35,791 nucleotides of DNA, taken from a virus. Every line of letters starts with the position of its first letter. The stretch's first letter is position 1. Below, one piece after another: positions 16,301 through 35,791 of the stretch. The stretch is taken from IMG/VR virus record IMGVR_UViG_3300025168_010621, positions 1 through 35,791 of that record. One strand, written 5' to 3'. Made by a program: the position numbers and the translations under genes. A model generated the notes under the pieces. That model saw nothing but the letters and a program-made list of their open reading frames with translations. It was not told the DNA's origin and did not search any database.

Positions 16301-17719
16301 ATGCAAGTATTAAAAACTTATTACAATGATGCGCAAATGACGGATACAAATTCGTTAGTAAATGCGTTATTGGAAAAGCCAGCTGAGCTTTCTCCAATCA
16401 TCACACACCTTGCAGGAAGGGAAGACAGAAAGTTTCCGTTAACTATGTTAACTGAAGGAGTTGGTAACACTAAGTCCATCGATAGATGGGAATATGAATA
16501 CCGTGTAAAATCTCATACTGTCCATACTCGTCCATGCGCGGCAGCAGCAGTAGGAACAGGAATTGGAGGCTCAGTCTTCACTTTATCTTTTCCAGACAAA
16601 TGGTTTGTATTTCCATATACACTAATCTCTAACGAAGGTACTCAAGCTAGAATTATGGCTGAGCCAGTTGCTTCAGGAAGTGGATATGACTATACAATGC
16701 AATTAGTAGATCCATCTGCAACAGCAGCTATTGTAGCTTCTGAAGGAGCTATCGGAGCAATCTGGGGTCAATTATATGCTAACGTAGGAGTTGATTTCTC
16801 TAGAGGAAATGCTTCTAACTGGTCTACTCCAGGTATGGTTAGAAACAAAATTGGTACAATTAGAAAATCTTATCACTTCGCAGGAAATGCTAAGAACTAT
16901 GTTGCTGAATTTGCTCTACCTACTAAAGGTGGTAAAACTACCAAAATGTGGATGGACTATGAAGAGTACTTACACATGCTTTCTTTCAAAGAAGAGTGTG
17001 AAATGCTTTACTGGTACGGAGAAAAAACTTATGGTAACAATGGAATAGTAAACATGACTGATGAAAATGGGCAACCAGTAATCACAGGTCCTGGTTTATT
17101 ACAACAAATTATCAATAAGGATACTTACTCTACTTTAACTGAAGCTAAATTAACTAACCTTATTGGTGACTTATTCTATGGAATGAGTGATGCTAACAAT
17201 AAAAGTGTTACGTTATTCACTGGTATCGGTGGAGCTAGAGAATTTGACAATGCATTAAAATCTTACACTGGTGGTTTCGCTGCTGGTTGGACAGTAAATG
17301 CAGAAAGTAAATTTATTACTGGATCAGGACGTTCTTTAGGAATGACTGGTTACTTTACAAGTTATGACCATATTGATGGACATACAGTAAATGTGGTTAA
17401 GCATCCAATGTTTGACCATGGTCCTGTAGCACAAGCAAGAACTAAACATCCTGTTACTGGCTACTCTATGGAATCATACAGAATGGTATTTGTTGACACA
17501 TCTTCATATGATGGTCAAGGAAACATTCAAATGATTAACAAGAAAGGACGTGAATATCTAAGATGGGCAGTTGCTGGATCTGTTGTTCCAAATGGTTTTG
17601 GATCAAGTGATTTAAGAGCTTCTGACATCGACGGCGCAAGCGTGCACATGTTGAAAACAGCTGGTATCGTTCTGAAAAGATTTGATACTTCTATTGACAT
17701 GGAATGTGTACGAGTGTAA
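16301..17719 (+). CDS. Major capsid protein, 472 aa (HK97-fold expected)
   Basis: Assigned by position (after scaffold, before connector proteins), by length (about 470-500 residues in crAss-like phages), and by base and codon use. This gene uses many C-ending codons (AAC, TAC, TTC, GGT) and is visibly richer in GC than its neighbours, a sign of selection for high translation. The protein is rich in Gly, Thr and Ala with few low-complexity stretches. An N-terminal helical part precedes a core with strands around KWFVFPYTLISNEGT (about residues 101-115) and MVFVDTSSYDGQG (about 395-407). No cleavage site is obvious. Hundreds of copies would build the icosahedral shell. The nearby GroES-like gene may assist its folding. 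Confidence 0.82.
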   Translation: MQVLKTYYNDAQMTDTNSLVNALLEKPAELSPIITHLAGREDRKFPLTMLTEGVGNTKSIDRWEYEYRVKSHTVHTRPCAAAAVGTGIGGSVFTLSFPDKWFVFPYTLISNEGTQARIMAEPVASGSGYDYTMQLVDPSATAAIVASEGAIGAIWGQLYANVGVDFSRGNASNWSTPGMVRNKIGTIRKSYHFAGNAKNYVAEFALPTKGGKTTKMWMDYEEYLHMLSFKEECEMLYWYGEKTYGNNGIVNMTDENGQPVITGPGLLQQIINKDTYSTLTEAKLTNLIGDLFYGMSDANNKSVTLFTGIGGAREFDNALKSYTGGFAAGWTVNAESKFITGSGRSLGMTGYFTSYDHIDGHTVNVVKHPMFDHGPVAQARTKHPVTGYSMESYRMVFVDTSSYDGQGNIQMINKKGREYLRWAVAGSVVPNGFGSSDLRASDIDGASVHMLKTAGIVLKRFDTSIDMECVRV

Positions 17720-17884: not shown

Positions 17885-18688
17885 ATGCAAAAGAAAATAA
17901 TAATTTTGCGTAAGGAGCCAGATGGGCCTTTACCAAAAGAGATCAGAGCAGAATCAAGAATGTACATTAGTAGTGTATATAGAAATAGACAACCTTTAAA
18001 AGGTATATCTATAGAAGAAGAAAAAAAATATTTAAATGGTATTTTAGATGTTAATCCTGACCATGTTGATTGGCCAAAACATATAAAAGACTATTGGGCA
18101 AACATGTCAATAATGGTTGGATACGGAGGAGTAGAGTTAGATGTTTCTACTACTGAAGATGGAGAACCAATAAATATTGAAGATTGGATAAGATACAAAT
18201 GGATAATGAAACATCCGCATGTAGCTCTTAATAAAGATGAGATGCAAGGTAAAATGAGATTTTTTATCAAAGACACTCAAAGAGATTTAAGAACAGCGAA
18301 TAATAAAATTCAAACTTTAAAAGATGCTGATAAAGTATTTATTAAAGTATCAGATAATAAAGATGAGATGAGAAGAATCTATCGTATGATGGCTTCAGAT
18401 AATCCTGACAAGTTAACTGACTTAGAAGTTGAAAATAGATTATACGCTTTGAAAACAGATAAACCTGCAAAGTTTATTAGAATTTCAACAGATAAACATT
18501 TAAAGTTAAAATCTGAAATTGAAGAAATGATAAGTTTGCAAATATTAAGAAGAATAGGAAATCAAGTAATATTTCAAGATGAAATTTTAGGAGATACATT
18601 ACAAGATACTGTTATTCATCTTAATGATAAAAAGAATTCTGGTAAGTTAACAACACTAAGAGCTCAACTAAAAGAAGCAGCTCTTTAA
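17885..18688 (+). CDS. Head/connector-region protein, 267 aa, crAss-like type
   Basis: The first gene after the capsid hairpin. It is charged, largely helical and lacks membrane segments or Cys. A region around GYGGVELDVSTTEDGEP (about residues 78-94) is followed by long helices with many Lys, Asp and Arg (about 125-200). Its place between the capsid and the ring protein matches a conserved uncharacterised protein of crAss-like phages. Likely a head-completion or minor head protein; no motif proves it. Starts at ATG 17885, with a short AT-rich leader and no strong Shine-Dalgarno, as expected in Bacteroidota. Confidence 0.75.
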   Translation: MQKKIIILRKEPDGPLPKEIRAESRMYISSVYRNRQPLKGISIEEEKKYLNGILDVNPDHVDWPKHIKDYWANMSIMVGYGGVELDVSTTEDGEPINIEDWIRYKWIMKHPHVALNKDEMQGKMRFFIKDTQRDLRTANNKIQTLKDADKVFIKVSDNKDEMRRIYRMMASDNPDKLTDLEVENRLYALKTDKPAKFIRISTDKHLKLKSEIEEMISLQILRRIGNQVIFQDEILGDTLQDTVIHLNDKKNSGKLTTLRAQLKEAAL

Positions 18689-18699
18689 AACTATAAATT

Positions 18700-19038
18700 A
18701 TGGCAATAGAAATAAGGAATACAACAGAACATTTATTGAGTGAAAATCCTAATATGGCTAAAGATATAAATTTACTTCGTAGAAATGATTTATTATCTAA
18801 AGGTGTTGGTGGATCTAAAACTATAAGTGGTGCTGCTGCACAGTCTGTAGCTGCTGGTACTTATTGGGCAGTTATGATGATAAAAGAAACTGCATTAACA
18901 ACATTTACTATGACTAATAGTCAGTGTGTAACAGGATTAACATATCCAGCAGGAACTTGGATTTACGGTGATATAAGAACTATTACTGGAAATTCAAGTG
19001 GAGCATATATTCTCTATTATGGAGACGCAGCGCTATAA
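18700..19038 (+). CDS. Small virion protein, decoration-like, 112 aa
   Basis: A short protein with a polar helical N-terminus (about 1-35) and a beta-rich C-terminal domain built from Thr, Gly, Ala and aromatics (TYWAVMMIKETALTTFTMTN, then TWIYGDIRTI). This resembles small capsid decoration or fibre-attachment proteins. It shares one base with the next start (TAATG) and follows the 267-aa gene by 11 bases, so it is made with the connector proteins. A head decoration or neck role is likely. Confidence 0.65.
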   Translation: MAIEIRNTTEHLLSENPNMAKDINLLRRNDLLSKGVGGSKTISGAAAQSVAAGTYWAVMMIKETALTTFTMTNSQCVTGLTYPAGTWIYGDIRTITGNSSGAYILYYGDAAL

Positions 19039-20210
19039 TGAATTTAGGACAAATGCATATATCAGTACAGCATGGGGTTGACAAAATCAACTCCATGCAT
19101 TCTGATTTATTGCTACCTGAAGAAATTGACTTAGAATTAAATAAAAATATACAAAGATTTATTAGTCAACGTTGGAATGCAGGAGGTAATAAATATAGAC
19201 AAGGGTTTGAAATGTCTCAAAAAAGAATAGATGATCTTAGAACTTTAGTTACAGAATTTTCTGCACCTACTGTTTATAAAGGGCATGTATACAAAAAAAC
19301 TTTTATAGATGCTTCATTTTTACCTAAAGACTATTTACATTTAATAAACTTAAAAAGTCTTGTATATAATTATAATTGCAAACCATATAATTATAATATA
19401 GATGTTGTTGCTGTAGGTAAGCAAGTTATAGAAATGGAAATTGATGTTACTACTATAAACATAAGTGGTTATACTAGTTATATTGGAGCTTTTTTATCTC
19501 ATGATATAACAGGAAATATTCCTGTAACATTACCACCAACAAATGCTTTAACACTTCCATATACAGGAGCTGATAATATAACTGCATTTAAAGCTTGGGT
19601 TACAAATCCTGCAAATTGGACTGCAGATGTAAATGCTGTTGGTTATGTTACAGTTGGTTCAAGTACTGTAGTTTCTGTAACTTTAAACGCAGGAGTAACT
19701 ACATTTGGTGGATCTACTGTATTACAAGTACCTGCTCCTGGTAGTGGTCCAGCAACAAGTTTACCTTTAGGTCCTATAACTTCAAGCAATGTAGCTGGAT
19801 TTGGACCTAGTTTTATATTTGCAAATAAAAGAATTAATGGTTTAGATAGTAATGGAAATCCTTTACCATATGTAAGTGATGTGTCAATGAATAAATTTGT
19901 ACAACATGACGATATATTTAAAATGTTATCTGATCCTTTTAACAAAACAAAGATAAGTACTCCTGTTTACACTATAAAAGATGATCACATAGAAGTATAT
20001 ACAGACGACACATTTATTGTAGATGCAATAAAAATGACTTATTTAAAAAAACCTGTAGTGGTTGATATTATAACCAATCCTTCAGTTAACTGTGATTTGC
20101 CTGACTACACTCATCAAGAGATTGTAGACATGACGGTAAATAGCATTTTAGAGGCAATTTCAGATCCTCGGTATCAAAGTACTAGTATAGAGATGTTAAA
20201 ATCTGAATAA
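19038..20210 (+). CDS. Ring/connector protein of the head-tail junction, 390 aa, with an inserted beta module
   Basis: The two ends resemble a crAss-like neck protein. The N-terminus has LLLPEEIDLELNKNIQRFI and later FEMSQKRIDDLRTL; the C-terminus has HDDIFKMLSDPFNKT, YTDDTFIVDAIKMTYLKKP and DYTHQEIVDMTVNSILEA. I recall these motifs in conserved crAss-like structural proteins near the tail-ring genes. Between them (about residues 160-275) lies a Thr/Gly/Pro-rich beta stretch that looks inserted. It shares its start base with the preceding stop. It probably forms a ring under the portal that extends the DNA channel. The motif match is from memory. Confidence 0.75.
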   Translation: MNLGQMHISVQHGVDKINSMHSDLLLPEEIDLELNKNIQRFISQRWNAGGNKYRQGFEMSQKRIDDLRTLVTEFSAPTVYKGHVYKKTFIDASFLPKDYLHLINLKSLVYNYNCKPYNYNIDVVAVGKQVIEMEIDVTTINISGYTSYIGAFLSHDITGNIPVTLPPTNALTLPYTGADNITAFKAWVTNPANWTADVNAVGYVTVGSSTVVSVTLNAGVTTFGGSTVLQVPAPGSGPATSLPLGPITSSNVAGFGPSFIFANKRINGLDSNGNPLPYVSDVSMNKFVQHDDIFKMLSDPFNKTKISTPVYTIKDDHIEVYTDDTFIVDAIKMTYLKKPVVVDIITNPSVNCDLPDYTHQEIVDMTVNSILEAISDPRYQSTSIEMLKSE

Positions 20211-21342: not shown

Positions 21343-21900
21343 ATGGCTTTATCAGCAACAATATCTGGTGATTGCAGATTGTTAACTATTGCAGGGGACT
21401 CTACTATGAGTGGAGCTCAAGTTGACTTATACTGGAATGACGCAACAATCACATCTGTACCTTACGACCCTTCTACCTTATTACCTATAACATCTTTAGA
21501 TGCTACAGGATCTTTAGTATTAAGTATAGCAAATTTTGTAGATGCTAGTGGACAACCTACTACAACATATACACATCTTAATGGTATATTTAAAATAGTT
21601 ATTACAGTAGCATCAGCATTAACGGCAGACACTGTTTATGAAATAGGAGCTGTAGGTATGTGCGATATTAATTGTTGTTTAGGAGCTAAAACAAAAGAAC
21701 TTATACAATGCAAGTGTGGAGATTGTTCAGAATGCACTAATATAATTTCAGATATAACAAAAATATACTTGCTTCTAAATGGAGCAAAAATTAACGTAGC
21801 TGGTTGTGTTCAAACTAATACGTTATATGAAGCATCAATTGATGAGTACTTAAAAGCAAAAACAATTTGTGGTACTAAAAATTGTCAATGCGACTGCTAA
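21343..21900 (+). CDS. Cys-rich structural or appendage protein, 185 aa
   Basis: The N-terminal 105 residues form a beta domain (ATISGDCRLLTIAGDSTMSG, then TTYTHLNGIFKIVITV). The C-terminal 75 residues are helical and rich in Cys (CDINCC, CKCGDCSEC, CGTKNCQCDC), with SDITKIYLLLNGAKINVAGC between clusters. Ten or more Cys suggest disulphides or metal binding in the mature virion. It precedes the 2613-aa protein by 11 bases and is surely co-transcribed. The C-terminus of the giant protein has a similar CxxC-then-helix style. It may be an adaptor that attaches the giant protein. Confidence 0.65.
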   Translation: MALSATISGDCRLLTIAGDSTMSGAQVDLYWNDATITSVPYDPSTLLPITSLDATGSLVLSIANFVDASGQPTTTYTHLNGIFKIVITVASALTADTVYEIGAVGMCDINCCLGAKTKELIQCKCGDCSECTNIISDITKIYLLLNGAKINVAGCVQTNTLYEASIDEYLKAKTICGTKNCQCDC

Positions 21901-21911
21901 AAAAATAAAAT

Positions 21912-24900
21912 ATGCCTTGGAATCCTCAAATACCACCTGCTCATAATCAGGCTAATAATTTCCACCCATGGAACGGTCTTAGATTTGTATTAGTCAAATT
22001 AGACAATCAGTCTTTACATATTATAAAGACTAGGTGGGGTGTATTTAGCTCAATAGGCGAAGGAGCAACAAGAAGATTTAATGGCTCTGTAGGAAATGGC
22101 GCTGGATACAATTATAAATTACATGCTGACAGAGGAGGTAATAGTGCTAGTTGTGATGTTCAAACTAGTGGTGCAGTATGGGATGCAAATGGTAGTGGCC
22201 ATGCAATTACTGTCGGAGGTCCAAATCAAGGAAACTCTATAAGTGCTGCTTGTATACCTTGGTTTAACGCAACTTCTTTTATACAACCTTCAACTCAACC
22301 AACTACTGGATGGAGAACTATGATAGATTGTGTTTCAGGTTGGGAAGGTGCAACTGGATCAAGTAGTCAATGGAGTGATTACCAACACATGGCTAGACCT
22401 AATGTAGATAATTATGCTTGTAGTGTTAATTCTGGAGGACCTCTTAATTATGCTATAGATCCAGGAGATATGCATGCTGGTACTCCTAGAATTTATTACA
22501 GTACAGGATCTAATGGTATGTTAGCTAATAATGGAAAAGGAGCTTATAATGATTCATTATGGTTTCATGAAAATCAATTTGCAAATAGTACTCCAACAAA
22601 CATTCCATGGGGAGCTGCAGGAAGTAGTCAAGGAGTATATTCTGGTGCTTCTATTGGAAACCCTATAGCATGGACTAGTAAAAGTATATATGCAACAGGA
22701 GGTTGGACTATGTATGACATTGTAGATAATTCTTCTATATTTTTTGCTGGTAGTGTTACTGGTTGTAGACCTGATGCTGCAGGAGTTGATGTTTATAATT
22801 TGGTTGAAACTGATATTTGTGCAGGTACTAATGTTATTTATGGCGCAGGAAAAGGTTTAACTGGTAGATTTGATTGGAGAATGCAACAATTTGAAGCTAC
22901 AAGTTATTATGCAATTATAGTATTTCCAACAAGCCCAAGTATGGCAGCTAATCCATCTGCTGATCCTATTATCCAAGACACAAAATTCGTATTACATTTT
23001 GATATGGATTCAGTAGCAATGCAAAAAATCTTTGGTGAGAATCATCATTTAAATACTTATAATAATCCATTTTATGGTTGGCAAGCTCAAGATACACTTG
23101 TAGGTATAGCACCAAGTTATCCAGGAGATGAAACAAATATGGCTTATTCTAATACTGGATTAACTCATAATTTATCTTCTGATACTAGTTGGAATGGTAG
23201 CCCTAGTATTGTAGTAGATAGTGTAAATGGTATTAGTAATGAAATAGGAGATTATTCTTCTTATGCAGCTTACAATGAAGACTTTTTCCAAGCTATTGGA
23301 GGTATATTAGATGGAGAGTTTGTATCTTTAAATGATGATTGGTGGAGTAAAAGTGGATCTGGTTCTAATCCTTGGAATGTTGATTTACTTAATGAATATC
23401 AAAAAGCTTTAATAGTTAACAGTGCATTTGATAGATATGATGACGCATTAACACCTGTTACTTTAGCTGATAAACAAGCTTGTATATTTGTAACTAAGAC
23501 ACCAGCTTCTGGAACACATTATAATACTATACATGATTATAACTTTTTTTCAAAACAAGATATGGTTAATGAGGATGACAATCCTTATTTTAATTTACAT
23601 ATTACAAGAAATGGAGATACAGTAGTTTTAAAAGATGTAGCTACAGGATTCCAAGATAAAGGAAGAGAAATGGATCCTGTATACTATGGTGGTTTATCTG
23701 ATGGAACTGCTTATGATAATGAAGGTATGACTATTGCTGGTCAATTTATTAAAGATTGGAAAGAAGGAGCAGGAACTAAATATCCAACTCCTCATGATAT
23801 GCCGATGTTAAGTATTCAATCTGCAGGTTTTGATTCTTTAATAGCAGATGAGCATAACACAAATGTAGGTACAAATCTTGATAATAGTAGTAGTACAGGC
23901 GGTGTAGCTAGAGGAGCTTTTTTTAGTTTTGATGCAAGAATTTATGGTGACGCTTCTAGTGGTCAAAGTGATTATAGAGCTTCTCATATGCATTTTACTA
24001 ATGCTGCTTATCTTTCTTCTAATTGGAGTCAACAATGGGGAATACAAGGTATAATTGGTAGAGGCTTACATGGAAGTGTTGCAGGTTTTGGTTCTACTAT
24101 TAATCCACCGATAAACACATATGGTGGAGCTACTTTTACAGATCAAACTTATGAAGTAGTATACATGGGTGCTACAACAATTCATAATGTTGGTGGTACT
24201 AATATTGGTTACAATTTTGTTACAAATGCTTCATTTCCTAGTACAGCTGTAAATTGGCAAATTCATAATACTAATTTAATAAATGGTACATATGGTGATG
24301 AAGGAATATATTGTTTTCCTACAGATGGTAATATTGAATGGCCTGATAATTTTACAAATGATTATAGTGTTTTTAATAAAAAAGGCCCGACTCCAATATC
24401 TGGTGTTGCTGGAGGTCCTGATGGAGCTTTAACTGTATTACATACTAATCACTCTACTCCAAATAAAAATAGATGGGCATTCCGTACAGGAAATGGTTTA
24501 TGTTATAACTCACATGTTGTAACTCCTTGTCCTACTCCTCCACAAAATCCATTTATACTTCCAGGTTTATGTGCTAATGGAGGTAGTTATATTTTAATGG
24601 CGTCTGGAACTTCAACAATAGTTGGAGATCAAACTTTATATATATATGATAATTTAGGTAATGTAGTTTATACAGAATCATTTACAGGAGGAACTGTTTA
24701 TAATACAACTCCTAATTGGTTATCTTTACAACCAGGAAATTATACTTATACTTGGGAATCTGTACATTGTTCTCCTTTTATATATTTTACTGGTACATTA
24801 AATATACCAAATCCAAGTCCAGCAATAAGTTTTACACATGATGTTGCTAACATAGTACTTACAGATCCAACTACATGTACTTCAAATGATGGTTCAATTT

Positions 24901-27900
24901 TAGGAGCTTTCAATGCGTCAAATGTTTCTGGATCTAATTTAACATCAGATAATTATAATTTAACTTGGGCTTTATATGAGCTTGATGCTACTTCAGGTTT
25001 ATATAATTATGTTGATCATGAGCATCCATTTTTATCTCAAGCTAACGGAGGGTTAAATTCAAATTATACTAATAATACTGGTAATACTGGTACAGGAGTA
25101 GCAGGTAGTGGATGTGCTGGTATAAATCCAGCAGGAGCTAGTTGCTCAGGATCTGAATATAATATAGCAAATAATTTAGATGATGGATGTTATAGATTAA
25201 TACTTTTTCCAAATCCAAGCAGTTTAAATTTACAAACATATACAGATCCATCAGGTGTATTATATTCTGATTTTACAGATCCTGCAACTAACGGTCCGTT
25301 AATGGCTTGTATGGAAATTTTTGATTTCTGTCTTACTTGCAGTAATGTTTTCAATGTAAATACATTTGGAACTACAACAACAACTTGTCATATATTAGAT
25401 GATGAAGATCAAGGTAATCTTGGAGTATGGACAGGATTGTTACCAAATAATGGTTATATAAATGGAGCTCCAAATCAACCAACAGATGTAGGTAGTATTA
25501 CAACAACTATCACTTCTGGAGGTACAGCTCCTTTTAATTTTATTGTTATGAACAGTGCAGGTCAAATGGTTGGTCAACTTGTAAATACTACTCTTACTAC
25601 ATTCACAGTAGACGGACTTCCACCAGATACATATACATTCCAAATAACGGATTCTAATCCAACGTTGCCTATGGTAATATCTACTCCATATACCATAAAT
25701 GCTCCAATACCTTTAAGCTGGACTACTCAACCTACAGTAACTAATCCTACATGTAGTTTAACTAATGGTATTATTTCTGGAGGTGTAGGAGATAGTCAAA
25801 CATGTGTTGGACCTTTAGAATATTGTTTATCTATATCAAACACATCTGTATGGGACACTATTATAACTGACGAATGGGTAGTAGAAGGATTAACAGCTGG
25901 AACAGCTGCTATATGGCAAGCAACTTCTACATTTAATAATGTTCCTCCTGGTACATATTATGTTTGGTTTAGAAATATTTGTGGATGTGCAATTCCTAGT
26001 GGAGTAATGACTGTAACTTCTGGAACTGCTTTAAATGGAGCTATTGTAAACAGTGCTGGAGCTTGTACAGGAGCTATTCCTACATTAACAGCAGGACTTA
26101 ATTCTGGAACAGCTCCATATTTATATGCGTGGTCTTCTGTTACAACAGGAACAAATGGTGTTGCAGAGCCTGGATTTATAGCTCCTGCAAATACATCTAA
26201 CGCATATACTCAAGTAACTTTAGGAGCTTTTGATTATGAAGTTACTATAACAGATAATGCAGGATGTACTTTAACTTTGACATACAGCACTTCTAGTGCA
26301 GGAGCTTTAAATATTAATACTATTGTTTCTCAAATAGGATGTTCAGGGGGTACAGGATATATTGATACTACAGTAACTGGTGGTACACCAAATTATACTT
26401 ATCAATGGTCAGGATCATCAACAGCAACTACTGCAGATTTAACTAGCTTAGCAGCTGGTACTTATACAGTAACAGTGACTGATGCCGCAGGATGTACTGT
26501 TACAGCTACTTATATTATAAATCCAACATATGGATTAGAAAAATTTCTTGATTTAAATCAATATGAATATAATTCACCATATGGATTAGCTCAAACAGGT
26601 ACAACATATGAAGATGCGTGGTATGGAAAATATGGAGGACCTACTTGTGCAACAGGAGATGACGGTACAATAAGATTAATGCTAGACGCTTCAGCACCTG
26701 TGTTAGGAGCAGCATTTCCTTATACAGTAGAAATTAGTAATGATGGAGGATTAAATTATTATCCTGTAAGAAATAATGCAGGTACAGTTTATACTGGAGC
26801 TAATGGTCTTGTATTAAATTATGATTCATATGATACAGCTACAGGATTTTTAACTTCAACAGGAGCAGCATGGGATCATGTAGTTGATGCAGCAGTTCCT
26901 TTTGTTTATTTTGAATTACAAGGTGGTACAGGAGGAGATGAGTGGGATCCAGGAGGAGGTTATGTAGATTTACCTTTTACAGCTGGGTCTGCTTGGCATT
27001 TTAAATTAACAGAAGTTGGATCAAGTCCTGCTTGTGAAATATTTGTTGATACTACTATATTACCTTCAGATCATCAGAATGTAGATGTAGGAGACAATAT
27101 AGCAACTTTAGTAAATGACCCTACTTGTTGTGGTTGTAATTCATATGGAGCATCAATGTTAGGCGCTTGTAATGGAAGTATAGCACCTACTCCTACATTA
27201 GGTACTTATGAAAATCATGTTGGAATTACTCCATTTGGATATTTATGGACTTATGCAGGGTTACCTACAACGTGTACTGTACCAGGGCATATTAATGTAA
27301 ATACTCAATGGACTAATCAAACAACTCAAAATTTAGCTTCTGAATGGCCTGGTGAATATACTTTAGTAGTAACAGATAGTTGTTCTGCAACAGATACAGA
27401 AACACTAACTTTACCAGATCCTATAGTATATGTTGATGATATTACTTGGACACATCCTTTATGTGCTGGATGTTGTGATGGAACTTTAACAGTTACAGCA
27501 CATGGAGGCAGTGGAAATTTAGAAGTATCTATTGATAATAGACAAAACTGGACTCCTATAACAGGAGGTAGTGTTACTCTTACTGGTTTATGTGATGGTA
27601 TACTTAATGTTTGGGTTAGAGATGATAGTGCTTGTGCTGTTGAATATTTTGCAGATTTAGATGATTCTATTTACGGATCATCATTTGACGATCACTGTTT
27701 TTCAGATGCAGATATAACTGGTATATTAACTACGTCAGGAACATGGACTCCTTCAAATAATAGTAGTGTAATGGGTACTCCTACTAATACAGCGTTTACT
27801 GGAGTAAATTATACAAGAATACAATTAATAGCAGTATCTAATTTTGTAGCAGCTAATACTTGTGTAACAAGTCATAACTTATTTCCAGGAGGAACAGATG

Positions 27901-29753
27901 GAGAAATAACATTACAATTACTTGGAGGTAATCCTCCGTATACTATATCTATGCAAACATTGATAGGTCCTGTGTATAGTCCTAGTACTGGTATGATTCC
28001 TTGTTCTGGTATTGGTCCTTTATCAACTTTAGTAGATCCTTGTACATTAACAGGACTACCAATACCAGGAAACAATTTAGCAGGAACTAGTATAATTACT
28101 ATAACAGATAACACTAGTGGAGTTTTAACTCAATGGTCTTCTGTTCCATCTACTGGGTTTGTAACAAGTGGAACTAATTTTACATTTGAACAAGTTAGTG
28201 TATCTAGAGATTTAAATTCTTCAGCTTTAGGTGCAGAATATATTATAACTGTACAAGATAGTACTGGCTGTGTTAATCAAGGTCAAATTGGTATGGACAA
28301 TGGTATGTTTAATTTAGTATCTATATATGGAGCTGAAAATTGCGATTGTATTTGTCCTTTAGGATTTACAATAGATACAGATCCTGGTTCACCTACATTT
28401 GAAGAATGTGTAAGTAATTTTATAGATCCTGTATGTTCAAATGGTACTATGGGATATTGGTCTTTATATAGTTATAATATGCCTGGAGGATCTTTACCTT
28501 CAAATTGGGGTTCTCTTGGGGCAGCTTTATATGGTCCATGGATAGGAGGAGTAGTATCTTATGGAACAGCTGTAACTTTAAATTTAGCTACACTACCGCT
28601 TAAAAAAAATATAGTAACAATTACACCTAATTTATTATATGATGATAATGTAGGAACACCTCAACTTGGAGTTGATTTAACTCTTTGGAATACTGTAGGA
28701 TTAACATCATACATAAATAGTAGAATACCAGACATAGCTGTATTTTTAACTCAACCAACATGGCCTATTACGCCTCCACCTCCACCAGTACCTACAGGAG
28801 AATGGATTGGTGATATAACAGAAGTTAATTTTCCTGCGCCTGTAGAAGTAATAATATGTATGGCGTCTGATGAAAAAATGAGAATGAAAGTTGATGGAAT
28901 AACTTATATTGAAATGGATGGAGATGATACTATTCCTGGTACTGTTACATCTAACTCAGATCATTTTAATATGTTCCCAATAATACTTCCTATGGGTATA
29001 CACACTATATCTTTTGAAGTTCAGAATAATACTGGACACGGATTTATGGCATATGATGTAATATCTAGTACAATGAGTACAGGAAATGTTTTTGTAGCAG
29101 AATGTTTAGCTCCTACTTACAGTCAACCTTTTCACGAAGCTAATTTAATATTAGATGTAAATGGAAATGCATTAAGTAGTAAAGTTTTAAATGGACAAGA
29201 AGTTTTATTAGGTAGTGTTTCTTATGGATACCAATGTTGTAATCCAGGTTCTGTAGTAAGCATTAGTAGTAATAATTTGTTCTGTACTACAGATATAACT
29301 GCACCATGTGAAGTTCCTTTAGATTGTGGATATTGTTTAGATCATGTAGGAAATCCTGCACCTCAATACACAGAAAAAGGACCTTGTGAAGATGCAACTA
29401 CAAATGGTATACCTCCTGTGTCATTAGGTAATGAATGGATAACAGATGTTTCTGCTTTATCTGATTTAGTTGAATGTCCAGCAGCTTTAGCAAATATAGC
29501 TTACTCTAAATTTGAAGGCGGTCTAGGTACAGATGTAATGGACATAAGATGTGCTTGGCTGGTAATTATGATAAAGCATATGTTAAAAAATCTAAATGTA
29601 TGTTTTACTTTAAGCGATATACAAGATGTGTTTGCAGGATTCTTAGATGAAGTATGTCCAACTTGTAAAGTAAAAAAAGCTCTTACACCAGCAGAAATGG
29701 CAGCAATAACAAATATGTTCACACTTAATACTAACGTAACTTTTGACTTTTAA
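21912..29753 (+). CDS. Giant adhesin-like virion protein with SprB-type repeats, 2613 aa
   Basis: A single uninterrupted frame of 7.8 kb. Residues about 1-930 form a Trp/Gly/Asn-rich beta region I do not recognise. Residues about 985-2120 hold some nine degenerate repeats of the SprB type: a start near PTC.....G, GG..PY.Y.W in the middle, and L..G.Y.V.VTD..GC at the end. The clearest (about 1475-1540) has VTGGTPNYTYQWSG and AGTYTVTVTDAAGC. SprB repeats occur in Bacteroidota surface adhesins used in gliding. Residues about 2145-2170 have a Cys-rich CICPLGF motif. Residues about 2180-2400 resemble a PA14-like fold (CMASDEKMRMKVDG, then GIHTISFEVQNN). The end is helical and Cys-containing (FAGFLDEVCPTCK). 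It has no signal peptide, so it is probably assembled into the virion as a tail spike or adhesin. It is followed after 11 bases by the fibre gene. Confidence 0.82.
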   Translation: MPWNPQIPPAHNQANNFHPWNGLRFVLVKLDNQSLHIIKTRWGVFSSIGEGATRRFNGSVGNGAGYNYKLHADRGGNSASCDVQTSGAVWDANGSGHAITVGGPNQGNSISAACIPWFNATSFIQPSTQPTTGWRTMIDCVSGWEGATGSSSQWSDYQHMARPNVDNYACSVNSGGPLNYAIDPGDMHAGTPRIYYSTGSNGMLANNGKGAYNDSLWFHENQFANSTPTNIPWGAAGSSQGVYSGASIGNPIAWTSKSIYATGGWTMYDIVDNSSIFFAGSVTGCRPDAAGVDVYNLVETDICAGTNVIYGAGKGLTGRFDWRMQQFEATSYYAIIVFPTSPSMAANPSADPIIQDTKFVLHFDMDSVAMQKIFGENHHLNTYNNPFYGWQAQDTLVGIAPSYPGDETNMAYSNTGLTHNLSSDTSWNGSPSIVVDSVNGISNEIGDYSSYAAYNEDFFQAIGGILDGEFVSLNDDWWSKSGSGSNPWNVDLLNEYQKALIVNSAFDRYDDALTPVTLADKQACIFVTKTPASGTHYNTIHDYNFFSKQDMVNEDDNPYFNLHITRNGDTVVLKDVATGFQDKGREMDPVYYGGLSDGTAYDNEGMTIAGQFIKDWKEGAGTKYPTPHDMPMLSIQSAGFDSLIADEHNTNVGTNLDNSSSTGGVARGAFFSFDARIYGDASSGQSDYRASHMHFTNAAYLSSNWSQQWGIQGIIGRGLHGSVAGFGSTINPPINTYGGATFTDQTYEVVYMGATTIHNVGGTNIGYNFVTNASFPSTAVNWQIHNTNLINGTYGDEGIYCFPTDGNIEWPDNFTNDYSVFNKKGPTPISGVAGGPDGALTVLHTNHSTPNKNRWAFRTGNGLCYNSHVVTPCPTPPQNPFILPGLCANGGSYILMASGTSTIVGDQTLYIYDNLGNVVYTESFTGGTVYNTTPNWLSLQPGNYTYTWESVHCSPFIYFTGTLNIPNPSPAISFTHDVANIVLTDPTTCTSNDGSILGAFNASNVSGSNLTSDNYNLTWALYELDATSGLYNYVDHEHPFLSQANGGLNSNYTNNTGNTGTGVAGSGCAGINPAGASCSGSEYNIANNLDDGCYRLILFPNPSSLNLQTYTDPSGVLYSDFTDPATNGPLMACMEIFDFCLTCSNVFNVNTFGTTTTTCHILDDEDQGNLGVWTGLLPNNGYINGAPNQPTDVGSITTTITSGGTAPFNFIVMNSAGQMVGQLVNTTLTTFTVDGLPPDTYTFQITDSNPTLPMVISTPYTINAPIPLSWTTQPTVTNPTCSLTNGIISGGVGDSQTCVGPLEYCLSISNTSVWDTIITDEWVVEGLTAGTAAIWQATSTFNNVPPGTYYVWFRNICGCAIPSGVMTVTSGTALNGAIVNSAGACTGAIPTLTAGLNSGTAPYLYAWSSVTTGTNGVAEPGFIAPANTSNAYTQVTLGAFDYEVTITDNAGCTLTLTYSTSSAGALNINTIVSQIGCSGGTGYIDTTVTGGTPNYTYQWSGSSTATTADLTSLAAGTYTVTVTDAAGCTVTATYIINPTYGLEKFLDLNQYEYNSPYGLAQTGTTYEDAWYGKYGGPTCATGDDGTIRLMLDASAPVLGAAFPYTVEISNDGGLNYYPVRNNAGTVYTGANGLVLNYDSYDTATGFLTSTGAAWDHVVDAAVPFVYFELQGGTGGDEWDPGGGYVDLPFTAGSAWHFKLTEVGSSPACEIFVDTTILPSDHQNVDVGDNIATLVNDPTCCGCNSYGASMLGACNGSIAPTPTLGTYENHVGITPFGYLWTYAGLPTTCTVPGHINVNTQWTNQTTQNLASEWPGEYTLVVTDSCSATDTETLTLPDPIVYVDDITWTHPLCAGCCDGTLTVTAHGGSGNLEVSIDNRQNWTPITGGSVTLTGLCDGILNVWVRDDSACAVEYFADLDDSIYGSSFDDHCFSDADITGILTTSGTWTPSNNSSVMGTPTNTAFTGVNYTRIQLIAVSNFVAANTCVTSHNLFPGGTDGEITLQLLGGNPPYTISMQTLIGPVYSPSTGMIPCSGIGPLSTLVDPCTLTGLPIPGNNLAGTSIITITDNTSGVLTQWSSVPSTGFVTSGTNFTFEQVSVSRDLNSSALGAEYIITVQDSTGCVNQGQIGMDNGMFNLVSIYGAENCDCICPLGFTIDTDPGSPTFEECVSNFIDPVCSNGTMGYWSLYSYNMPGGSLPSNWGSLGAALYGPWIGGVVSYGTAVTLNLATLPLKKNIVTITPNLLYDDNVGTPQLGVDLTLWNTVGLTSYINSRIPDIAVFLTQPTWPITPPPPPVPTGEWIGDITEVNFPAPVEVIICMASDEKMRMKVDGITYIEMDGDDTIPGTVTSNSDHFNMFPIILPMGIHTISFEVQNNTGHGFMAYDVISSTMSTGNVFVAECLAPTYSQPFHEANLILDVNGNALSSKVLNGQEVLLGSVSYGYQCCNPGSVVSISSNNLFCTTDITAPCEVPLDCGYCLDHVGNPAPQYTEKGPCEDATTNGIPPVSLGNEWITDVSALSDLVECPAALANIAYSKFEGGLGTDVMDIRCAWLVIMIKHMLKNLNVCFTLSDIQDVFAGFLDEVCPTCKVKKALTPAEMAAITNMFTLNTNVTFDF
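24870..28290 (+). repeat. SprB-like repeat region within the giant protein (about nine units)
   Basis: Unit starts are near residues 985, 1190, 1278, 1383, 1475, 1577, 1736, 1848 and 1986. Units share a Cys near the start followed by D/NG, a GG..P or G.AP turn, an aromatic strand, and a closing L..G.Y.....D...C. Spacing is irregular (65-150 residues), the units are divergent in DNA, and several carry insertions, so this is an old protein repeat and not a recent DNA duplication. Confidence 0.7.
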
Positions 29754-29764
29754 AATATAAAAAT

Positions 29765-31066
29765 ATGGCAACTCTAGTAAAAAACTTATCTTCTATTGAT
29801 TTAAACAATTTAAACTCATTATCAAATAATTATTATTTATACACTACTGATATTAGTACAGGTAGAGATAATAAAATCCGTTTAAATGATGTTATTAAAA
29901 GTTATAGAACTCTAGGAAGAGGAGTATCTATAATACAAGAACAATCTGTAGCTTCAGTAACTTTAAGATCTATATTAGGATCTGGAAATGTTATAAGAGT
30001 TGCAGAACAATCTGGATCAGTAAGCATCAGCCTTAACGAATCACAACTTAATTTAAATAAATGTAATAATACAACTTCTTTATTTTTACAAACTGTAAAT
30101 CTAGCTTCTAATGTAGGAGCAACAGTATTACCTACAGCTAATGGAGGTACTAATAAAAGTACTGCTTGGGTAGTAGGAGATATAGCTTATGCATCAGCAA
30201 CAAATACTTTAGGAGCTATTGCAGCTGCAGCATCAGGTAATGTATTATTATCTGCTGGTACTGGAACAATTCCAGCTTATGGTAAAGTTGGATTAGGAAC
30301 ACATGTAAATGGCTCATTACCAGTAGCTAACGGAGGATCAGGCCTTACAAGTATAGCAGCTAAAACTGTTTTAATAGGTGCAGGTACAGGTAATTTAGTT
30401 CCTTCTAATGTTCCAACAGCAGGACAAGTATTAATAGGACATGCGTCTGGCAATCCAGCATTTGCAAATATTACTTCAAGTGATGCTAGTGTAATTATTG
30501 CTAATGGTAATAATACTATAGATCTTGTAAGTAGAAGTTCTAAATTAGAATTAGCAGATGGAACTGATATGGTAGTTAGTTCAGGAACAAATACTGCAAC
30601 TGGAAGCGCTAAAACATTTAGTTACCAAAGAAGAATAATTAATTTAACAGGGGCTAGTAAAACTTGTGACTCTACAGAAACTGGATCTATATATACTTTA
30701 GATAGAGCTGCAGGAATGGCAATAACATTACCACCAGCGGTTGCAGGATATTGCTATGAGTTTCATATAATGACTACTTTTACAGGAACTTGTACTATTA
30801 CAGCTGCATCATCTGCTGATACATATGTAGGATCTGTTATAAATCACGACAAAGATGAAAAAGGATCTGTAGTAGCTTTAAATGAAAATATTTCTACTAG
30901 TGGATTTAACATACCAGGCTTAACTGATTACATATTAACTTTAGATGCAGACACTGACGGTAGGTTTCTAGGTGGTAAATTAAAGTTTACAGCTTTATCA
31001 GCTAGCAAATGGCACGTAGAAGGTACTCTATTTAATGATGGCTCTGTATCTCATATATTTAGTTAG
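29765..31066 (+). CDS. Tail-fibre protein, 433 aa
   Basis: The N-terminal 95 residues are probably the attachment part. Residues about 115-250 form fibre-shaft repeats (LPTANGGTNKS, LPVANGGSGLTS, GTGTIPAYG, GTGNLVPSN, SGNPAFANI) of the type G-T-G.....A.GQVL found in trimeric phage fibres. The C-terminal 150 residues form a beta domain (ITLPPAVAGYCYEF, CTITAASSADTY, KWHVEGTLFNDGSV) related in pattern to the ends of the protein at 4531. Lies 11 bases after the giant adhesin and probably co-assembles with it. It would bind a host surface receptor or hold the receptor-binding module. Confidence 0.8.
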   Translation: MATLVKNLSSIDLNNLNSLSNNYYLYTTDISTGRDNKIRLNDVIKSYRTLGRGVSIIQEQSVASVTLRSILGSGNVIRVAEQSGSVSISLNESQLNLNKCNNTTSLFLQTVNLASNVGATVLPTANGGTNKSTAWVVGDIAYASATNTLGAIAAAASGNVLLSAGTGTIPAYGKVGLGTHVNGSLPVANGGSGLTSIAAKTVLIGAGTGNLVPSNVPTAGQVLIGHASGNPAFANITSSDASVIIANGNNTIDLVSRSSKLELADGTDMVVSSGTNTATGSAKTFSYQRRIINLTGASKTCDSTETGSIYTLDRAAGMAITLPPAVAGYCYEFHIMTTFTGTCTITAASSADTYVGSVINHDKDEKGSVVALNENISTSGFNIPGLTDYILTLDADTDGRFLGGKLKFTALSASKWHVEGTLFNDGSVSHIFS

Positions 31067-31546: not shown

Positions 31547-33124
31547 ATGGCAACACTTAAAAGCAAAATCCAAATTAGTAGTTCAGACTTCTTTAGTCAA
31601 AGCCTAAATCTTAGTACTTCTACAACTACTAGCACTTCAGGAGATGATAGAGCTTTTAGTGTAGAACGCGTAGAATTAGGTGTAAGACCTACATCCACGT
31701 TAACACAGTCAGAAACTGCGTTAGCAAATATGAACACCAAAACATTAACGTTAACAGATGCGTACCAAAATACGCATACTGTTACGTTTTCAACTGCTTA
31801 TGCTAACACTAGAGGAGGTGTATCTGCTTCAGGCAGTGTAACAATATTAAGCACAGCACTAGCTACTTGGAATGGTAAAACTCTAACAATGAGTGATAAT
31901 TTAGCTACTCCAAGAGCATTAACTATAACATTTAATAATACAACAACTACAATAGTAAGAGGTACATGTACTTCAACTGTTATAGCATATGCTGTAGGAT
32001 TAAGTGGATTAACTACAACAGAAGCTATCAGAAATAAAATAATAGCAGCAATTTCTACTATTTCAAATGCAAATGATTTTTTCATGACTGCAACTAAAAA
32101 TATATCTAATGTAGCAGTAGTTGATTTAACTCAGTCTGCTGTAGGTAATGTAGCAACTCCAGCTATAGGAGGTACTGCAGAAAGTAGTAGTTTATTAAGT
32201 GCAGTTGATTTTACAAAAGGAGGTGCTGGTTATACTTCTGCATTTGTAGGAATAAGTAATAATGCTGCTACTACTACAGCGCATTTAACTTCTTTAAGAA
32301 ATACACTTTTACTAGCAAAAGAAGAAGGAAAATTAATGATAGATCCAGGACCAGTTCCTACAGCAAGCACTTTAACACTTTCTATGGTAGGACCTTATGC
32401 TTCTTCTAAACTTAGTTTACCTACAGGTACTGCTATAACAGCTAGTGAAATGTCTGCAACAACTTTTACAGGTGGTGATGTTCCGTTAGTATTTCCTTGT
32501 GGAGAATTTAATAGTTTACACCAAAAAGTATATTTATATGTTGTAAATAAAAGTGGTTCTGGTACTGTAAACTTTTATATGAAAGATACTACAGCACACG
32601 CTGAAGGTACAATAGTTGCAAGTCAAACTGATACATCAGGGATAAATGTTGGTAAAACACTTATATTAACATCAGCTAAAGGTATAGCATACACTCTTAC
32701 AAGTGTAGCTCCTAATGCTGCAACTGCTAATACAAGAGTTTCAGATACATCTTATATTTATGGAGATGGAGACACTATGGAAGCTACTATGATTAACATA
32801 ATAGAAACATTAGCATTAATTAAAAATAATGCATCAAGAGAAAAAACTCCTTTTACTGCATCTTTAGATAGCTCTACAGTTTTAAGAATTGAGCAAAACA
32901 CACTTGATGGAGGTACTTTAAGTAATAGAGCTATTACAGGTACTTTAATTGATGAGGGTATTATCAGTACTGGTGGTATAACTGGAGGTATAGATTCTTA
33001 TCATTTATTCGCTAGGCTAGGGCCAAAAGAATTTATGTATCTTCCTATGGCAGGATCTCCTAAACTATATGCAGATTCAGAAGACGTAGTATCAGAAATA
33101 GAATATTTAACTTTAGAAGCGTAA
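31547..33124 (+). CDS. Virion appendage protein with repeated beta modules, 525 aa
   Basis: A Thr/Ser/Ala-rich protein built of modules of about 90-110 residues with the recurring pattern strand (KTLTLTDAYQNTHTVTFSTA or KTLTMSDN...ALTITFN), helix (TEAIRNKIIAAISTI), strand (FFMTATKNISNVAVVDLTQS). A similar module appears near residues 365-455. The same module style is embedded in the protein at 4531. It ends in an acidic tail, and its stop overlaps the next start (TAATG). Modules of this kind are frequent in phage virion proteins and probably act as beta-sandwich spacers. A structural appendage role is likely; which one is unknown. Confidence 0.75.
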   Translation: MATLKSKIQISSSDFFSQSLNLSTSTTTSTSGDDRAFSVERVELGVRPTSTLTQSETALANMNTKTLTLTDAYQNTHTVTFSTAYANTRGGVSASGSVTILSTALATWNGKTLTMSDNLATPRALTITFNNTTTTIVRGTCTSTVIAYAVGLSGLTTTEAIRNKIIAAISTISNANDFFMTATKNISNVAVVDLTQSAVGNVATPAIGGTAESSSLLSAVDFTKGGAGYTSAFVGISNNAATTTAHLTSLRNTLLLAKEEGKLMIDPGPVPTASTLTLSMVGPYASSKLSLPTGTAITASEMSATTFTGGDVPLVFPCGEFNSLHQKVYLYVVNKSGSGTVNFYMKDTTAHAEGTIVASQTDTSGINVGKTLILTSAKGIAYTLTSVAPNAATANTRVSDTSYIYGDGDTMEATMINIIETLALIKNNASREKTPFTASLDSSTVLRIEQNTLDGGTLSNRAITGTLIDEGIISTGGITGGIDSYHLFARLGPKEFMYLPMAGSPKLYADSEDVVSEIEYLTLEA

Positions 33125-34176
33125 TGCGTAAATTTTTAGTAATCATATTAACCTTTATTTTAGTTGCATGTGTTGCACCTAAAAAATGCTGTGGGCAAAA
33201 CTTTAAAAAGTATTTTAAATTTGCTACGTTTTATGGTGGACTAAATGGAGGTACGTCTATATCAGATGTTGATGTATTTTCTGTATCTAATGGATTACAA
33301 ACAGCAACTGTTAAAACTCCTTATGATTATAATTTAGCTTTAGGTGTTCGTAAAATTGCTAGATTTGGATATGAAAATAAAGCACAAACTTTTTATGATG
33401 GTACAGAACAATCTTGGTCAGATAATGCTAATGTAGGTAAAGCATCTGGATTAGAATTTTTATTTGAAATAGATTATAAAAGACAACAAGGTAATGAATA
33501 TTTAGATCAAAACCACTTTATTAGATATGTAGATAATAAGTATATAATTAAAGGAGAATATCTTGAAGATGGATTTGCAGATATTAAATACTTTGAAACA
33601 TCAGAAAGATATAGATATAAAGTTAATGACAAATTATCGTTTAACGCTGGAGCTGTTCAAAGGTTATCTGAGCCATATGGTTACGATCCTTTAGCTGAGT
33701 GGGTATTAGATAACGGTGATATACATTACACTTATCTAGCGCTACAAGAAGGTTATGAAGTTGATGTAGCTGCTAGTGAGTATTTTTCTCCAAATGGAGA
33801 TCTTGTAGCTACTAGTGCTGAAGTTTGGGAAGAAGTTGTTATACCTACTGCACTTTCAGACTATACTGCAAGAAAAAGAAATGAATTAAATTTAATGGTA
33901 CAACACTCTGTAGTAGTAGGGTTTGATTATTATCATTATACTAAAACATTTTGGACACACACTTGGGCTAATGTAATGCCTTATCATTTAGATATTGATA
34001 ATGAATTTTCATATCATAAATATAATAATGGGCAATGGATTGATTACAGTGGAGGTTTAATATTTGGATATAAACACAATAAACATTTAGGTACCTTCAT
34101 TGAGGGTAAAGCAAACAAGTACTGGAATAGAACCTGGTATGATTTTAAAATAGGAATAAATTATATAATCTTTTAA
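33124..34176 (+). CDS. Exported lipoprotein with outer-membrane beta-barrel character, 350 aa
   Basis: The N-terminus is a hydrophobic signal with a lipobox, ILVAC (C16); a second possible cleavage follows CCGQ near residue 25. The mature part alternates polar and hydrophobic residues with many aromatics (FATFYGGLNGGTS, YDYNLALGVRKIARFGYENK, SYHKYNNGQWIDYSGGLIFGYKH) and ends in a terminal Phe (DFKIGINYIIF), typical of outer-membrane barrels whose last strand ends in an aromatic. It has the look of a host-type OmpW/OmpA-like barrel, not a virion protein. The start overlaps the previous stop (TAATG). It may be placed in the host outer membrane to block receptors (superinfection exclusion). A virion role cannot be excluded. 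Confidence 0.7.
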   Translation: MRKFLVIILTFILVACVAPKKCCGQNFKKYFKFATFYGGLNGGTSISDVDVFSVSNGLQTATVKTPYDYNLALGVRKIARFGYENKAQTFYDGTEQSWSDNANVGKASGLEFLFEIDYKRQQGNEYLDQNHFIRYVDNKYIIKGEYLEDGFADIKYFETSERYRYKVNDKLSFNAGAVQRLSEPYGYDPLAEWVLDNGDIHYTYLALQEGYEVDVAASEYFSPNGDLVATSAEVWEEVVIPTALSDYTARKRNELNLMVQHSVVVGFDYYHYTKTFWTHTWANVMPYHLDIDNEFSYHKYNNGQWIDYSGGLIFGYKHNKHLGTFIEGKANKYWNRTWYDFKIGINYIIF

Positions 34177-34180
34177 TACA

Positions 34181-34456
34181 ATGGGAAAAGAACTCAACGA
34201 AGACACGACGTTTAAATTAAGTATAAAAACAATGGGAGGGATGGCAGTCTTAATATTTACTTTAGTCAGCATGTGGTTCGTGTTGCAGGCTGATATAGCT
34301 GAAGCAAAAGAGTTGCCTAAACCAGAAGTTTCTAAAATGGAATTTCAAATGAAAGATGCTAATATAAGATTGTCGATTGAAAATACAGAAAAAACAGTAG
34401 ATGAGATTAAACAAAGAATGATCAGGTTAGAAGAAAAAATTGACGATTTAAGATAA
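34181..34456 (+). CDS. One-pass membrane protein with a C-terminal coiled coil, 91 aa
   Basis: The N-terminal 15 residues are polar, then one hydrophobic segment at about residues 18-37 (MGGMAVLIFTLVSMWFVLQA), then a charged helical domain predicted to form a coiled coil (about 58-90, LSIENTEKTVDEIKQRMIRL). It probably spans the inner membrane with the coiled coil in the periplasm. This is the layout of i-spanins and some holin-like proteins, and it sits beside other exported genes. It begins 4 bases after the previous stop and ends in a TAATG overlap with the thioredoxin-like gene. Function is inferred from topology only. Confidence 0.7.
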   Translation: MGKELNEDTTFKLSIKTMGGMAVLIFTLVSMWFVLQADIAEAKELPKPEVSKMEFQMKDANIRLSIENTEKTVDEIKQRMIRLEEKIDDLR

Positions 34457-34812
34457 TGAAGACTCAAGGATCTATAAGATTATTTTGTTTTTATATGATG
34501 CTAATATTATGCATGTTATTAGCTAATGCTTCTTTTGGACAAATTGTAGTTACACACTTTAATGCAGAATGGAATGATCCAAACAAAGTAGCATACATAG
34601 GTAAATTAACAGATTGTGATATAGTATATGTAGACATTGCAAAATCACCTAAGATACAAGAAAAACATAATATAGTAATTGTTCCTACAGTTGTTATATT
34701 TAAAGATGGAGAAGAAGTAAAAAGGTTTCAAGCTGATATATCTTTTAGTATGAAAGCAACAAGAAAAGAGATGCAATCAGTAATTGATGAATTAATAATG
34801 AGTGATTTTTAA
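34456..34812 (+). CDS. Secreted thioredoxin-fold protein lacking the CxxC active site, 118 aa
   Basis: A signal peptide (cut after ASFGQ, about residue 29) precedes a thioredoxin domain. HFNAEWNDPNK (about residues 34-44) aligns with the classic FWAEWCGPCK: the strand, the Trp and the Pro are kept, but both active-site Cys are Asn and Gly is Asp (NDPN in place of CGPC). The cis-Pro segment IVPTVVIFKDGEEV (about 75-88) is normal. Redox activity is therefore not expected; the fold probably serves binding or chaperoning in the periplasm. Two remaining Cys (one in TDCD, one in the signal region) do not form a CxxC. Its start shares a base with the previous stop (TAATG). A frame error is unlikely because the rest of the domain is intact. 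Confidence 0.8.
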   Translation: MKTQGSIRLFCFYMMLILCMLLANASFGQIVVTHFNAEWNDPNKVAYIGKLTDCDIVYVDIAKSPKIQEKHNIVIVPTVVIFKDGEEVKRFQADISFSMKATRKEMQSVIDELIMSDF

Positions 34813-35086: not shown

Positions 35087-35791
35087 ATGAAAAAAATATT
35101 ATCTATATTATTATTATTACCAGCTTTATTATTTAGCCAAAATTCTTGGGTTAGATTTGAAGTGCAGTTTGATTTCTATGCTCCAGCAGAGTCTAACTTC
35201 TTTATGGTTTCTGATGGATATGGAGATACATCTATATTTTTTCAGCCAACTACGCAGTATGAATATTTAGACACTGTTATAGATGTTAACAGTGGTAGTT
35301 ATACTATAAGTTTAAGAGACAGTTTTGGTGATGGCTGGATGTCATCTCAACCTTCTTCTTTTAGAATGGGTAATATATGTCAAGGAGCTATAATAGATTG
35401 GAATCCTGTATTAGGTTCATTTTTTCAAAGAGATACTACAGTTACTATTATGCCGTGTCCACCACCTACACCACCACAATTAGTATCTGCTAAAGTTATA
35501 ATTAATTTAGATCAATATCCTTCAGAAACTTCTTGGGATATAACAGATTCAAGTGGTACTATACACGCATCAGGATCTGGGTATGGATCTCAGCCTATTT
35601 ATTCTACTATAGAAGAAACAGTTTGGATACCTAAAGGACCTTTATTTTTTACAATTAAAGATGTATATGGTGATGGACTACAAGGATCTTTGTGGCAAGG
35701 TAACGATGGTTCTTATTTTGTAAAACAATGTAACGATACTTTAGTTTTTGGTACAGATCCTGCTTTTGGCAATGATTCAATACATGCTTTT
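35087..35791 (+). CDS. Secreted beta-domain protein with GDG motifs (partial, runs off the right edge)
   Basis: The 235 residues present start with a signal peptide (cut after LLFSQ, about residue 18). Two similar domains follow. The first has SGSYTISLRDSFGDGW (about 69-84) and the second GPLFFTIKDVYGDGL (about 184-198), plus SDGYGD near 42-47. A Pro-rich linker (about 122-130) separates them, and the second domain opens with INLDQYPSETSWDI (about 139-152). Strand followed by D.YGDGW is a pattern of extracellular beta-sandwich domains in Bacteroidota secreted proteins, where the acidic loop probably binds calcium. It is the last gene visible in the exported cluster and probably acts on the cell surface. 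The C-terminus is missing. Confidence 0.75.
   Translation, partial: MKKILSILLLLPALLFSQNSWVRFEVQFDFYAPAESNFFMVSDGYGDTSIFFQPTTQYEYLDTVIDVNSGSYTISLRDSFGDGWMSSQPSSFRMGNICQGAIIDWNPVLGSFFQRDTTVTIMPCPPPTPPQLVSAKVIINLDQYPSETSWDITDSSGTIHASGSGYGSQPIYSTIEETVWIPKGPLFFTIKDVYGDGLQGSLWQGNDGSYFVKQCNDTLVFGTDPAFGNDSIHAF

Follow-up and report, generated by a model that had tools for sequence, protein, structure and literature searches.

The locus studied here raises the question of what a crAss-like phage does with a protein of 2613 residues and whether the SprB-type repeats in that protein mark it as a gliding adhesin. The original prediction had attributed this protein (hereafter the giant) to a phage and had proposed that it mimics the moving SprB adhesin of gliding flavobacteria. 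The window, by which we mean the whole stretch of DNA analysed (35,791 nt), is a genome fragment from a 35.8 kb virus record (IMGVR_UViG_3300025168_010621), and it contains the predicted open reading frame and its translation. Our analysis suggests that the giant is probably a long, virion-associated, tail-fibre-like adhesin of a marine crAss-like phage, composed of an anchor, a stalk and a tip.

The window derives from a crAss-like phage (Crassvirales), in agreement with the predicted phage source. The terminase, portal and capsid proteins matched Crassvirales families (phrog_11589, 6547 and 6681), and the major capsid protein showed approximately 30% identity to many crAss phages across most of its length. 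A marine origin of the phage is likely, judging from the genome-centre contigs in which relatives occur and from its grouping next to marine crAss-like phages. The terminase, portal, capsid and ring genes are located upstream of the giant gene on the same strand, and the giant gene itself lies among tail genes. The gene order of the window is capsid, gp33-like, ring, g336, g185, giant, g433 and g139, while that of crAss001 is capsid, gp33, R4, R3, auxiliary, hub A, hub B and R2 (PMC10172136); upon comparison of the two orders, g336 and g185 fall in the places of the auxiliary and hub A genes. The ring gene product matched crAss001 gp34 (HHalign 94.8%) and reached an E-value of 2.8e-4 with PF25710, which is under the cut-off, and the product of the preceding gene (17885-18688) matched gp33 (94.2%). 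No homology between g336 and the crAss001 auxiliary protein gp36 was detectable. The C-terminal part of g185 showed a weak similarity to gp38 (E 0.008, HHalign probability 5%), which was its best match among the eleven crAss001 proteins compared, and weakly suggests that g185 is a tail-hub gene. The coordinates of the features are summarized in Table 1.

Table 1. Features of the window, with window positions and the evidence for each.
Feature	Positions	Strand	Evidence
Crassvirales major capsid protein	16301..17719	+	phrog_11589
Tail ring protein, crAss001 gp34 R4/R5 type	19038..20210	+	PDB 7qoj, E 2.7e-7
g185, left edge of the slot	21343..21900	+	Same place as, and weak similarity to, gp38 (crAss001 tail hub)
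Giant slot protein, 2613 aa: variable N-terminal region, SprB-type repeats, C-terminal proposed anchor domain	21912..29753	+	ORF and translation
Fast-diverging N-terminal region, residues 1-1193	21912..25490	+	Windowed identity against close relatives
SprB-type unit, residues 1194-1249, moderate	25491..25658	+	11 bits, bacterial-unit HMM
SprB-type unit, residues 1390-1461	26079..26294	+	27 bits, bacterial-unit HMM; six-frame search
SprB-type unit, residues 1477-1537, best	26340..26522	+	57 bits; PF13573; six-frame search; model
Weak SprB-type unit, residues 1771-1833	27222..27410	+	5.8 bits, bacterial-unit HMM
Weak SprB-type unit, residues 1851-1914	27462..27653	+	Bacterial-unit HMM; six-frame search
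Weak SprB-type unit, residues 1993-2011	27888..27944	+	PF13573, 24.5 bits (six-frame search); bacterial-unit HMM
Weak SprB-type unit, residues 2100-2126	28209..28289	+	Bacterial-unit HMM
C-terminal Cys-rich helical domain, proposed anchor, residues ~2514-2590	29451..29681	+	HMM, HHalign, model
g433, conserved fibre-like neighbour at the right edge of the slot	29765..31066	+	Comparison with relatives
g235, signal-peptide protein truncated where the window ends	35087..35791	+	Signal peptide; full-length relatives

Two further loci in the window were observed. A second size-variable slot is located between the portal gene and g354 (12711-15089); in relatives its products measure between about 400 and 2,163 residues, often with undetectable similarity, and the product in the window is a candidate tail spike or injected protein. 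On the opposite strand, 2095-2778 (-) encodes a CHAP-domain protein (63 bits) with a transmembrane-like N-terminal stretch, which is likely a lysin or a tail-associated hydrolase.

A match to the SprB family had been expected within residues 985-2120 of the giant, and the Pfam SprB profile PF13573 scored 37.1 bits against a curated cut-off of 28 bits (E 2.3e-9), with five matching stretches, the best of which covered residues 1470-1504. A six-frame search placed PF13573 matches at 26100-26147, 26319-26423, 27456-27518 and 27888-27950. An independent HMM, built from 14 bacterial SprB units, scored 86.5 bits against the giant. The giant is rich in Thr (11.3%) and Gly (10.6%), a composition that might resemble the repeat by chance; the likelihood of such an artefact is negligible, as the reversed giant scored -4.8 bits and the highest of 300 shuffles only 9.0 bits, which excludes it, and the repeats are kept in orthologues. 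The bacterial-unit HMM resolved about seven units in residues 1194-2126, comprising two strong, one moderate and four weak units. The SprB motif was thus found where it had been predicted, whereas the predicted count of about nine repeats falls to about seven, of which three are solid; the stretch had also been predicted to begin at residue 985, where this HMM detected no unit, the first being that at residue 1194. Many Cys and Gly residues are invariant in the stretch of residues 1851-1914. The orthologues of the giant in other phage contigs likewise exceeded the PF13573 cut-off, and in seven of the eight giants examined, a unit scoring about 50-57 bits followed one that scored about 22-32 bits.

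Other explanations of the domain content were considered and rejected. A PA14 domain, which had been suggested as a check, gave no match in the Pfam scan of the giant, and the single match in a relative (E 0.046) was under the cut-off. Membership of the giant among the tail proteins with tandem BACON repeats was also rejected, as no BACON match was present in the Pfam scan up to an E-value of 10. The identity of the best unit to those of bacteria reached 70%, a value that is biased since the bacterial loci were fetched with the motif of that same unit, and we did not accept it as proof of recent transfer.

The repeat itself does not imply a gliding adhesin. A motif scan of viral contigs revealed 190 relatives with SprB-type repeats, and all nine sampled viral-contig proteins of other families passed the PF13573 cut-off, most of them with a higher score than the giant. 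In a genome scan, most bacterial carriers of SprB repeats were signal-peptide proteins of Bacteroidota, and those with a readable end had C-termini resembling sorting domains, which were confirmed with TIGR04131 in the three carriers tested. The giant has no signal peptide, its most hydrophobic N-terminal 12-residue stretch having a mean of 0.65 compared with 2.9 in g235. No T9SS sorting domain (TIGR04131, TIGR04183, PF13585 or PF18962) was found at its C-terminus; the T9SS domain matches in the giant were internal and sub-threshold, while bacterial SprB-repeat proteins used as positive controls passed. Furthermore, the giant is encoded by a phage record with capsid, portal and terminase genes, not by a gliding bacterium.

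These results bear on the mimicry that had been proposed, in which a virion protein would bind the partners of SprB or reach the injection site by riding the gliding track. Phage adsorption in flavobacteria has been linked to gliding proteins (PMC13288928), and the giant does contain the SprB repeat family, with the biased 70% identity noted above. However, the likeness to SprB is limited to a repeat that is not SprB-specific, the repeats form the conserved part of the giant, and relatives that occupy the same genomic slot keep the C-terminal domain while replacing or lacking the repeats, which appear dispensable. We therefore regard the mimicry as very unlikely and favour the tail-fibre-like adhesin. 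The literature searched yielded no account of a phage virion protein with SprB repeats.

SprB repeats were also observed in other phage proteins. Widespread, SprB-repeat-rich phage proteins of 700-1,000 residues (in contigs L107, L110, L139, L156 and L172), many of which begin with 'M..SYN...TGDC.N..SG', were nearly missing from the annotated phage collection, and relatives with a named host were absent from that collection for the SprB proteins of other phages. Three IMG/VR contigs (L105, L138 and L177) encode SprB-repeat proteins with signal peptides and T9SS sorting domains, which are either phage T9SS cargo or products of misassigned bacterial contigs.

A search with the whole giant revealed no homologue in viral contigs and just one short match, in a megaphage record. 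Eighty capsid-bearing relatives were therefore fetched via the capsid protein, and their genes were compared with the window. In relatives with readable flanks, the slot between g185 and g433 holds one protein family, with lengths of 134-154, 371-373, 790, 1,151, 1,201, 1,324, 1,371 and more than 2,000 residues. The full-length giants comprise 2,250-2,744 residues, and orthologues of the giant were found in L082, L084, L086, L085, L087, L116 and L117. In L087 (8966-15744), the giant is split into overlapping frames of 767 and 1,520 residues, reflecting either a frameshift or a true gene split; it is intact in the close relative L116.

An HMM built from the C-terminal 140 residues of the giants was searched against 1,902 ORFs from the loci of the relatives. 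After the giants themselves, the next 18 of 18 matches were slot proteins, down to those of 134-154 residues, although several of the 18 came from near-identical contigs and one further slot protein ranked after the first unrelated ORF. Single E-values between giants and small forms were modest (4e-4 to 0.2), and HHalign comparison of the minimal forms with the giants gave 90% (P 1.5e-6). The minimal forms consist of hardly more than the Cys-rich helical domain. As judged from these sequence comparisons, the slot family consists of a C-terminal domain to which an exchangeable N-terminal extension may or may not be added, and the giant shares both the position between g185 and g433 and the common C-terminal domain. 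The largest members carry SprB repeats, and others carry NYNP/DDGSC repeats or something else; in L022, L026, L033 and L035, the extension ends in a Bacteroidota-type repeat (GC.D..A.NYNP.A..DDG.C) and not in SprB. The conservation of the C-terminal domain suggests an anchoring role. No relation was found between this domain and g185 or the main crAss001 virion proteins; the crAss001 tail-hub protein THB gp39 occupies a comparable genomic place, with an HHalign probability below 1%. A C-terminal 'FDF' motif in common with a fibre gene of L085 was rejected, as the L085 ORF is truncated at the end of its contig.

Comparison with L082, L084 and L086 revealed that conservation varies along the giant: residues 1-1400 were mostly about 20-40% identical, while most of the rest was about 45-65% identical. 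The strongest SprB units fall inside the conserved portion. Because the repeat part is well conserved and the N-terminal 1,400 residues diverge, the SprB repeats look like a stalk rather than a fast-evolving contact surface, and the pattern fits a protein whose stalk and base are conserved and whose tip varies.

Profile and structure comparisons were also performed. The best PHROG match of the giant was a Hoc-like head decoration family (phrog_2973, E 6.4e-15), and PDB profile matches included the grappling-hook protein GhpA, the decoration proteins 5lxk and 8zvi, and the neck-whisker protein 9occ. Since proteins of such different kinds are matched, the SprB-type repeat can be considered a general Ig-like module. 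The AlphaFold model of the C-terminal half had low confidence (mean pLDDT 44), although the best SprB unit was modelled as all-beta (pLDDT about 66-80) and the C-terminus as helices, and it is these beta domains and C-terminal helices that are usable from the models. The model of the N-terminal part was unusable (pLDDT 28.8). Foldseek returned strings of Ig-like domains with negligible TM-scores and adds little.

The profile matches raise the possibility that the giant is a Hoc-like decoration fibre, that is, an Ig-like protein on the capsid that provides loose attachment to cells or particles. The position of g336, upstream of the giant, is that of a capsid auxiliary protein and would agree with this explanation. 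In contrast, the decoration matches are confined to the repeats and no capsid-binding domain was identified, the neighbouring genes resemble ring and hub genes, and the proposed anchor domain has no detectable relation to the crAss001 head-fibre proteins gp21 and gp29. A head decoration fibre accordingly seems unlikely compared with the tail-fibre-like adhesin.

For the tail-fibre-like adhesin, the proposed arrangement is as follows. The C-terminal Cys-rich helical domain would anchor the giant beside the tail hub, Ig-like beta-sandwiches arranged in a string and including the SprB-type repeats would project it outward, and the fast-diverging N-terminal 1,000-1,400 residues may contact the host surface. 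The SprB repeats would be one of several Bacteroidota surface-repeat modules in the slot and may serve as a stalk or in weak adhesion, by analogy with the role presumed for BACON domains in crAssphage. Most tail fibres attach via their N-terminus, and the C-terminal anchoring proposed here would therefore be unusual.

The window also encodes exported proteins downstream of the giant. g235-type proteins are Cys-rich, contain NYNP repeats and have a clear signal peptide, and related genes were found in seven of the 18 phage records tested. The closest relative, in L114 (9149-11521), is 88% identical to the fragment in the window and has a T9SS type A sorting domain at its C-terminal end (TIGR04183, 35.9 bits with a cut-off of 23; PF18962, 43.9 bits with a cut-off of 27). 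The relative in L226 (10075-12612), whose contig also carries Crassvirales capsid and ring genes, passed TIGR04183 at 23.9 bits and did not reach the PF18962 cut-off. Other relatives of g235 have a C-terminal tail without an HMM match, and a signal-peptide protein from Flavobacteriales finishes with a similar tail. Given the T9SS type A sorting domains of some full-length relatives, these proteins are likely exported to the host surface. Phage T9SS cargo has been described in Cryophage, where it was called a unique occurrence (PMC7468147). As with the g235 relatives, T9SS type A sorting domains are encoded there by phage genes, but the Cryophage cargo comprises endoglucanase, GH39 and PA14 proteins, whereas the protein found here is Cys-rich and repetitive and is encoded in the late gene cluster of a crAss-like phage.

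The same cluster could be taken to indicate that the giant, too, is made in the infected cell and exported, acting outside the virion. Signal-peptide proteins are encoded beside it and relatives of g235 have T9SS sorting domains, but the giant itself has neither a hydrophobic N-terminal stretch nor a sorting domain at its C-terminus, and this explanation is highly improbable compared with a virion-associated adhesin. It is doubtful, though conceivable, that in this marine crAss-like group Bacteroidota surface-adhesin modules act on both sides of the infection, in repeat-bearing proteins fixed to the virion by an expandable anchor and in a Cys-rich repeat protein that T9SS exports while infection proceeds; if so, the latter could block or steer rival phages or retain progeny at the host surface.

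Two neighbouring products were noted. The 33124-34176 product, conserved at 56-60% in L087, L226 and L227, has a signal peptide or lipobox and an aromatic last residue (NYIIF), as in outer-membrane beta-barrels, and is possibly a superinfection-exclusion or lysis-stage factor. The 34456-34812 product, encoded beside the genes for Cys-rich exported proteins, has a signal peptide and a thioredoxin match that falls just short of the cut-off (23.1 against 23.5 bits) and might aid disulfide formation.

Overall, these results indicate that Bacteroidota phages took the SprB repeat, a frequent building block of host surface proteins, into presumed virion proteins, and they call for caution in equating a PF13573 match with a gliding adhesin. 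The proteins of a single crAss-like slot vary between an anchor domain of 134 residues and an adhesin of 2,744 residues, and the slot family points to the location of host-contact proteins in uncultured marine crAss-like phages.

We finally compared the giant with known systems. SprB and other T9SS-secreted Bacteroidota SprB-repeat proteins are similar to the giant in their PF13573 repeats and great length; unlike them, the giant lacks both secretion features, resides in a phage structural cluster and has a C-terminal domain common only to phage slot proteins. The Hoc-like and Ig-like decoration proteins share an Ig-like repeat with significant profile similarity, but the giant is much longer and is encoded beside tail genes. 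GhpA of Aureispira (PDB 9flp) matched the repeat region (E 1e-6), and both are giant proteins in which beta domains are repeated, although GhpA is a bacterial and not a phage protein. Ig-like adhesins of gut crAss-like and other phages mediate epithelial binding (PMC13370021). The closest parallel was with the crAssphage tail-region proteins that carry tandem BACON domains, which are Ig-like, of Bacteroidota surface origin and proposed to bind cell surfaces (PMC6949934). Both systems belong to Crassvirales and combine a tail-region gene with tandem Ig-like domains of Bacteroidota surface type and one poorly conserved protein end. In contrast to the BACON proteins, the giant contains SprB repeats, its poorly conserved end is N-terminal rather than C-terminal, and its C-terminal domain is common to proteins of 134 to 2,744 residues. 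The giant is a variant of this arrangement with another repeat family and a clearly defined slot.
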